Notes under the pieces: model-generated | Database searches by the model: none | Seen by the model: only the letters and a program-made list of their open reading frames with translations | What the model was told of the DNA's origin: nothing | Translations under genes and position numbers: made by a program | NCBI RefSeq assembly: GCF_003711225.1 | Contig: NZ_CP031030.1 | Coordinates: 4,836,001 to 4,900,000 of the forward strand | Reading direction: 5' to 3' | Length of the DNA: 64,000 bases | From: Runella sp. SP2 | Lineage (GTDB): Bacteria; Bacteroidota; Bacteroidia; Cytophagales; Spirosomataceae | Shown: piece by piece, positions 27,716 through 27,787 of the stretch | How positions within the stretch are numbered: position 1 is the stretch's first letter | How the letters are laid out: each line of letters starts with the position of its first letter

Positions 27716-27787
27716 TACGAATAATTTCGTAGCAAACATATACGAAGCGTTTCGTATTACCAAATTTTTTATACGAAATATTTCGTA
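27716..27787. promoter_or_regulatory. Three BlaI-type operators and the repressor promoter
   Basis: Three 16-bp perfect dyads of the form TACGAA-N4-TTCGTA lie at 27716-27731, 27741-27756 and 27772-27787. For the minus-strand blaI gene, the -7 box TATGTTTG (27733-27740) is immediately followed upstream by operator 2, and a -33 TTTG sits at 27761-27764, 20 bases away. So operator 2 occupies the spacer and operator 1 the start site. Operator 3 lies 58 bases before the divergent DUF5686 ATG. Confidence 0.88.

Follow-up and report, generated by a model that had tools for sequence, protein, structure and literature searches.

Three perfect copies of the dyad TACGAA-N4-TTCGTA in front of a blaI gene of Runella sp. 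SP2 are probably the operators of the adjacent BlaI-type repressor, which would use them to repress its own blaI-M56 operon and be relieved by the co-encoded M56 protease, as a member of a subfamily with a TACGAA operator code of its own. BlaI/M56 pairs are commonly taken as regulators of antibiotic resistance with operators of the TACA/TGTA type. The proposed reading builds on the sites, their threading into the promoter, their conservation, their linkage to one BlaI clade and the occurrence of further sites in trans, and from these it predicts binding, repression, proteolysis and a signal.

The window, i.e. the whole analysed stretch of 64,000 nt, contains the three exact copies within 72 bases adjoining blaI and none elsewhere (Table 1). 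A motif scan confirmed this arrangement, which the initial annotation had reported together with the distances of 25 bases between the centres of operators 1 and 2 and 31 bases between those of operators 2 and 3. A single base separates operator 1 from the -7 box, and 8 bases lie between its other end and the blaI ATG (27707). When up to 2 mismatches are tolerated, 4 dyads are found in the window as compared to 2.97 expected; since the relaxed motif is close to expectation, the signal consists of exactness and clustering.

Table 1. Regulatory sites and genes around the blaI promoter of Runella sp. SP2 (positions in the window).
Feature	Position	Strand	Sequence	Remark
Operator 1	27716..27731		TACGAATAATTTCGTA	in the blaI leader, adjacent to the -7 box on its downstream side
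Operator 2	27741..27756		TACGAAGCGTTTCGTA	in the blaI promoter spacer, flanked by the -33 and -7 boxes
Operator 3	27772..27787		TACGAAATATTTCGTA	upstream of the blaI -33 box
-7 box	27733..27740	-	TATGTTTG	blaI promoter, Bacteroidota type; no mismatch to the assumed consensus TANNTTTG
-33 box	27761..27764	-	TTTG	blaI promoter; consensus assumed
blaI repressor gene, 122 aa	27339..27707	-		Penicillinase_R PF03965; helix YTTTLKLMQIM
M56 membrane peptidase gene, 692 aa	25264..27342	-		PF05569, 97.8 bits; HELAH at residue 215
DUF5686 gene	27846..30281	+		CarboxypepD_reg-like N-terminus and DUF5686; divergent; possible, unproven target
proA	30322..31575	+		glutamate-5-semialdehyde dehydrogenase; after the DUF5686 gene

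The scan of the whole genome (7,613,819 bases, 7.61 Mb) that had been proposed at the outset returned 5 exact copies of the dyad, as compared to 2 of the reversed control pattern. Three of the five form the array at the blaI promoter, and the suspicion that the motif might be common genome-wide and unlinked to blaI did not materialize. The other two, each at position 1501 of its stretch (L001 and L002), fall within reading frames of 466 and 473 aa that are related to each other, and were rejected as targets on that account. These frames (L001:1370-2770 and L002:1349-2770) lie 45 kb apart, each after another related frame of 150 aa, and the two frame pairs look like a duplicated module, perhaps a mobile one. 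A second exact operator cluster was not found in the whole-genome motif scan, and weaker sites may exist. With one mismatch allowed, the genome contains the dyad at 25 places and the control at 33, i.e. without any excess, so that no regulon was drawn from single degenerate sites and the significance of the motif rests on the three exact copies in 72 bases beside blaI.

The 122-aa protein scores 93.8 bits against PF03965 (cut-off 22.6), which places it in the family, and it matches the MecI/BlaI entries 1sd6, 1okr and 1sd4 of the PDB. Palindromic operators in the repressor's own promoter, a mark of the BlaI/MecI/CopY family, are present as predicted sites. The M56 gene starts within the end of blaI, with an overlap of 4 bases, and its product contains the M56 domain with the HExxH motif that characterizes BlaR1/MecR1 proteins. 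No Pfam match to a penicillin-binding sensor domain was obtained in this protein at E 0.001, and the cut-offs of the NCBIfam BlaR1/MecR1 models were not reached (blaR1_generic gave a partial match of 105 bits, the cut-off being 400). By eye, the tails of the M56 proteins in the window and in most of the 16 loci viewed from relatives look like coiled coils, and several of them end in short stretches similar to one another. At L179:1782-2540 (= L102), a paired TACGAA operator stands at the start of a secreted, coiled-coil-like protein. This protein is similar to the C-termini of the M56 sensor-proteases (best E 7e-9) and may be a detached version of the sensor tail with the same regulation.

The blaI promoter was scored against TTTG and TANNTTTG, which we take to be the Bacteroidota promoter consensus. 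On the minus strand, TTTG (27764-27761) and the -7 box (27740-27733) show 0 mismatches and are separated by a 20-base spacer, which is filled by operator 2; the boxes stand where the initial annotation had placed them, framing this operator. Operator 1 covers the predicted start site of blaI, given the spacing from -7 box to start site that we assume for Bacteroidota.

To follow these sites through evolution, relatives were gathered by a protein search seeded with BlaI peptides, which found 84 proteins, leaned towards close relatives and left 80 loci, ranging from Runella, Spirosoma, Pontibacter, Chitinophaga, Pedobacter and others to records of Ignavibacteria and Acidobacteria. Of the 80 relatives, 77 possess a dyad with no more than one mismatch in the 400 bp upstream of blaI, and 68 possess an exact one. 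Altogether, 159 sites (113 of them exact) were counted upstream across the 80 loci, as was a single occurrence of the reversed control pattern, and the 289,699 bases downstream of blaI in the same loci contain no dyad. Per-position counts made on sites preselected at one mismatch or less overstate invariance, a choice that is avoided by a motif-free count of inverted repeats. In this count TACGAA-N4 ranks first among repeats with 6-base arms (68/80), followed by a shifted form (24), a repeat formed with the neighbouring operator (19) and a second shifted form (19), and TACGA-N6 ranks first among those with 5-base arms (76/80). The three relatives devoid of a site are L077, L082 and L084, the last of which offers only 31 upstream bases. 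Loci of the Spirosoma type are without operator 3 and those of the Pontibacter type without operator 1. From operator 1 to the blaI ATG, L006 and L009 have leaders that exceed that of the window by 62 and 151 bases, respectively, despite 99% and 92% identity of their BlaI proteins to that of the window.

The threading of an operator into the promoter is widespread as well. Defined as TTTG-N19..21-TANNTTTG with at most one mismatch and an operator inside, a threaded promoter was detected in 39 of the 77 site-bearing blaI loci, as compared to 21 of 3850 (0.5%) after shuffling of the non-operator bases; at this stringency it was not found in the other 38. Among the 39 threaded loci, 35 carry a further operator after the -7 box and 19 carry one before the -33 box.

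The initial annotation had also proposed that operator 3 extends control to the divergent DUF5686 gene, and in this form the proposal did not hold up. Three exact sites, spaced by 31 and 25 bases, are retained in all nine Runella relatives, and the next divergent gene is DUF5686 in three of them (L006, L007 and L009) and proA in six (L008 and L010-L014). Three-operator arrays with spacings of 29-31 and 26-27 bases, some one-mismatch sites included, occur also in L018, L025, L028, L031, L053, L057 and L062; in L018 and L057 the upstream frame, as called mechanically from open reading frames like all those in this comparison, is co-directional with blaI. The retention of operator 3 whatever the divergent gene, together with the arrays in distant taxa, indicates a design of the blaI promoter and not a device for DUF5686. 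A plus-strand promoter for DUF5686 by operator 3 was sought and rejected: the only matches have at least 2 mismatches and are badly placed, one of them reaching into the blaI start and another lying too near the DUF5686 ATG. In the metagenome-derived Runella L009, the DUF5686 gene (L009:1270-3707) is split over two frames.

The DUF5686 gene may still be affected by the operators. It has been considered that operator 3, with operators 1 and 2, also represses DUF5686 and that in Runella sp. SP2 this gene is what the switch actually serves to control. Its ATG lies 58 bases beyond operator 3 (the open frame extends back to a GTG at 27792), it is the sole divergent gene beside the one cluster of its genome, and the CarboxypepD_reg-like N-terminus of its product recurs in the scanned beta-barrel proteins described below as targets in trans. 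Such bidirectional control is nevertheless rather unlikely, given the unchanged operator 3 and spacing in the six relatives that have proA in place of DUF5686 and the poor quality of the plus-strand promoter matches.

Comparison with other BlaI proteins shows how specific the site is. The genome of Runella sp. SP2 encodes four further BlaI paralogues (L086-L089) above the PF03965 cut-off; L091, which with 22.6 bits lies just at the cut-off, was set aside as a protein that, from its sequence, we take to be probably PadR-like. A perfect dyad of the classical type (TTCTACATTTGTAGAA) is located upstream of L087. The dyads of the other three are TACTATATTTGTAGTA (L088), AAACTACACGGATAGTTT (L089) and AACTGATAAAACAGTT (L086), each of them our pick among several imperfect inverted repeats. 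The four paralogues seem to use four dyads, and one genome may hold five BlaI operator codes. In 17 further genomes, a TACGAA site, exact or with one mismatch, accompanies 18 of 18 BlaI proteins of the close clade (54-66% identical), and it accompanies 0 of the 13 paralogues scored in these genomes and in that of Runella, a scoring that left out L088, L205 and L209 (no alignment) and nine further listed matches. From this distribution, the clade appears to be a subfamily of BlaI that has an operator code to itself.

The subfamily can also be recognized by its putative recognition helix. Residues Y37, T38, T39, L41, K42, Q45, M47 and K50 are identical in all 81 proteins (80 relatives and the window protein), the constancy of Q45, M47 and K50 being partly a product of selection, since the seed peptides included residues 44-51 and the counts lean towards them. 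The same eight residues are kept in 18 further relatives from the 17-genome search. The corresponding helix reads YNTVSTIIR or TTVATLLKR in the paralogues and SPKTIRTLITR in MecI, and we infer from the sequences that the helix residues set the operator code. The description of the dyads as BlaI-type operators agrees with the linkage of the sites to a BlaI clade across phyla, and the half-site is, as the initial annotation had remarked, unlike TACA/TGTA, the core seen in the L087 dyad and in the CopY operator consensus RNYKACANNTGTMRNY given in the accessible part of a published study (PMC7253601).

Potential targets elsewhere were collected with a paired-site pattern of two exact dyads 3-20 bases apart. 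This pattern is present in 21 of 395 genomes of the phylum and in at least 95 of 390 genomes of the order, two sets that overlap, and its reversed form has 0 occurrences in both. Among 67 distinct clusters that were read (four listed ones, from genomes G601, G704, G707 and G745, were left out), 45 lie beside a BlaI gene, 18 precede an outer-membrane beta-barrel gene and 4 lie elsewhere, near a LytTR response regulator, an S41 peptidase, a DUF1800 gene and a secreted coiled-coil-like protein. A cluster counted as linked to BlaI when the fetched stretch of 1.5-6 kb contained a BlaI match, and the clusters beside BlaI lie within 500 bases of it. All 18 beta-barrel clusters belong to a single other genus (g5) of the order, in which they are spread over 15 genomes, and so count as one lineage of evidence. 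Four of the barrel genes were scanned (L178, L154, L159 and L164) and encode PF14905 with a CarboxypepD_reg N-terminus; the other 14 were called by similarity to L178, with 29% identity for L154, L156 and L157 and at least 61% for the rest. By eye, many barrel clusters are threaded too, for example TTTGAATATACGAA....TTCGTATGTTTG followed by a second operator.

A BlaI of the clade is encoded elsewhere in each of the 17 genomes that have a remote cluster and were searched, so that control of the barrel genes would be exerted in trans. In this other genus, outer-membrane beta-barrel genes appear to be controlled in trans through the same code. The wider idea of the initial annotation, a target in the cell envelope, gains plausibility from these beta-barrel genes. 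A MarR-type gene recurs by the beta-barrel targets (L123, L147/L174, L155, L158, L161, L164, L169, L170 and L177), with a Pfam MarR match in L123, L158, L169 and L177 and likeness by eye in the other neighbours; its recurrence suggests a second regulator of the same receptors.

The pairing of a repressor with an M56 protein, together with the partial blaR1_generic match, could also denote a classical beta-lactam-responsive BlaI/BlaR1 system with an altered operator. It would suit this idea that genes of PF00144, a broad serine-hydrolase family named 'Beta-lactamase', occur near three of the clusters scanned (L178:769-1944, L158:763-1935 and L123:2-793). These genes, however, are not preceded by operators: they are located upstream and not downstream of them, oriented towards both the operators and the intervening MarR-type gene. 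As the M56 protein of 692 aa is moreover without a match to a penicillin-binding domain and the site is kept across phyla, a classical system is quite improbable. The genes adjoining the window cluster and its operon encode M56, DUF5686, ProA and a sub-threshold match to GtrA, with no beta-lactamase or PBP2a among them. The phrase 'rather than a beta-lactamase' in the initial annotation is therefore correct for the genes by the window cluster and needs qualification for the other genus, where PF00144 genes lie near some clusters.

The dyads might instead be bound by a repressor other than BlaI, for which the blaI operon would be just one target among several. The 22 of 67 clusters that lie away from a BlaI gene and the MarR-type gene adjoining several remote clusters would be accommodated by this explanation, but the 45 clusters beside a BlaI gene, the presence of a clade BlaI in every one of the 17 genomes with a remote cluster and the tracking of the sites with the BlaI clade and not with the paralogues make it very improbable. 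Chance or repeat-element palindromes without a regulatory role, to which the chance level of the relaxed motif in window and genome might point, have a negligible probability, since sites, spacing and promoter threading are all conserved in the relatives, which contradicts them.

Autorepression by BlaI, the preferred reading, would operate as follows. BlaI dimers would occupy operator 2 inside the promoter, operator 1 in the start region and, immediately upstream, operator 3, and the bound dimers would exclude RNA polymerase and thereby repress the blaI-M56 operon. The M56 membrane protease would sense an envelope signal, which is probably not a beta-lactam, and once activated would inactivate BlaI and open the promoter, as BlaR1 does with BlaI. 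The repressor would represent a widespread BlaI subfamily with the conserved helix YTT-LK--Q-M and its own code TACGAA-N4-TTCGTA, apart from the codes of its paralogues. The M56 tails and the L179 protein, along with the barrel targets, point to envelope sensing. A broader and more tentative view, which we consider possible without favouring it, is that of an ancient, cross-phylum BlaI-M56 branch whose code is orthogonal to that of the resistance branch and which may monitor the Gram-negative envelope and adjust beta-barrel receptors, with the periplasmic tail of M56 as the sensor and the three-slot threaded array as its promoter.

A clade that is recognizable by its helix and tied to a conserved 16-base site could allow regulons of this clade to be read from genomes. 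The annotation 'penicillinase repressor' would mislead for proteins with the TACGAA code. Moreover, an orthogonal repressor-operator pair with known promoter geometry would be on offer for Bacteroidota, and a route would be opened to what M56 proteases without a penicillin-binding domain sense.

The literature was searched with subscription journals and regulon databases outside reach, and no link between TACGAA/TTCGTA and a BlaI protein appeared among the matches listed. Two occurrences of the letters were rejected as BlaI sites: in the accessible part of PMC7253601, TACGAA stands in a sequence listed for the pneumococcal gene Sp_0045, and in that of PMC2658668, TACGAA and TTCGTA occur in primer sequences. 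The accessible part of PMC10920655 contains nothing bearing on the TACGAA operator code, and DUF5686 is not mentioned in the literature searched. The protein itself is an ordinary member of its family. Among the matches listed, none was seen to describe its operator code, the link of this code to a clade defined by the helix, a threaded promoter with three slots or the beta-barrel targets.

Known BlaI/MecI systems have symmetric operators in their own promoters. Like the staphylococcal and bacillary BlaI and MecI with BlaR1 and MecR1, the Runella locus pairs a Penicillinase_R repressor with an M56 membrane protease. It differs from the systems of beta-lactam resistance in the ACGAA half-sites of its operators, which replace the TACA/TGTA core, in the recognition-helix residues of BlaI, in promoter boxes of the Bacteroidota type and in the lack of an adjoining beta-lactamase or PBP2a gene. 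BlaR1 relieves BlaI repression upon exposure to beta-lactams, according to the accessible part of PMC7593790; unlike BlaR1 and MecR1, the Runella M56 protein yields no match to a PBP sensor. The paralogues L086-L089 of the same genome belong to the same Pfam family and have different dyads and helices. The CopY/CopR copper repressors share with the Runella protein the family and a 16-base dyad, and TACGAA agrees with positions 2-5 of the CopY consensus as given in the accessible part of PMC7253601, whereas the first base (T) and the sixth (A, as opposed to the C of ACA) do not fit. Unlike CopY/TcrY, finally, the Runella BlaI is devoid of the CXC metal motif and reaches 48.9 bits against the CopY_TcrY cut-off of 121.95.
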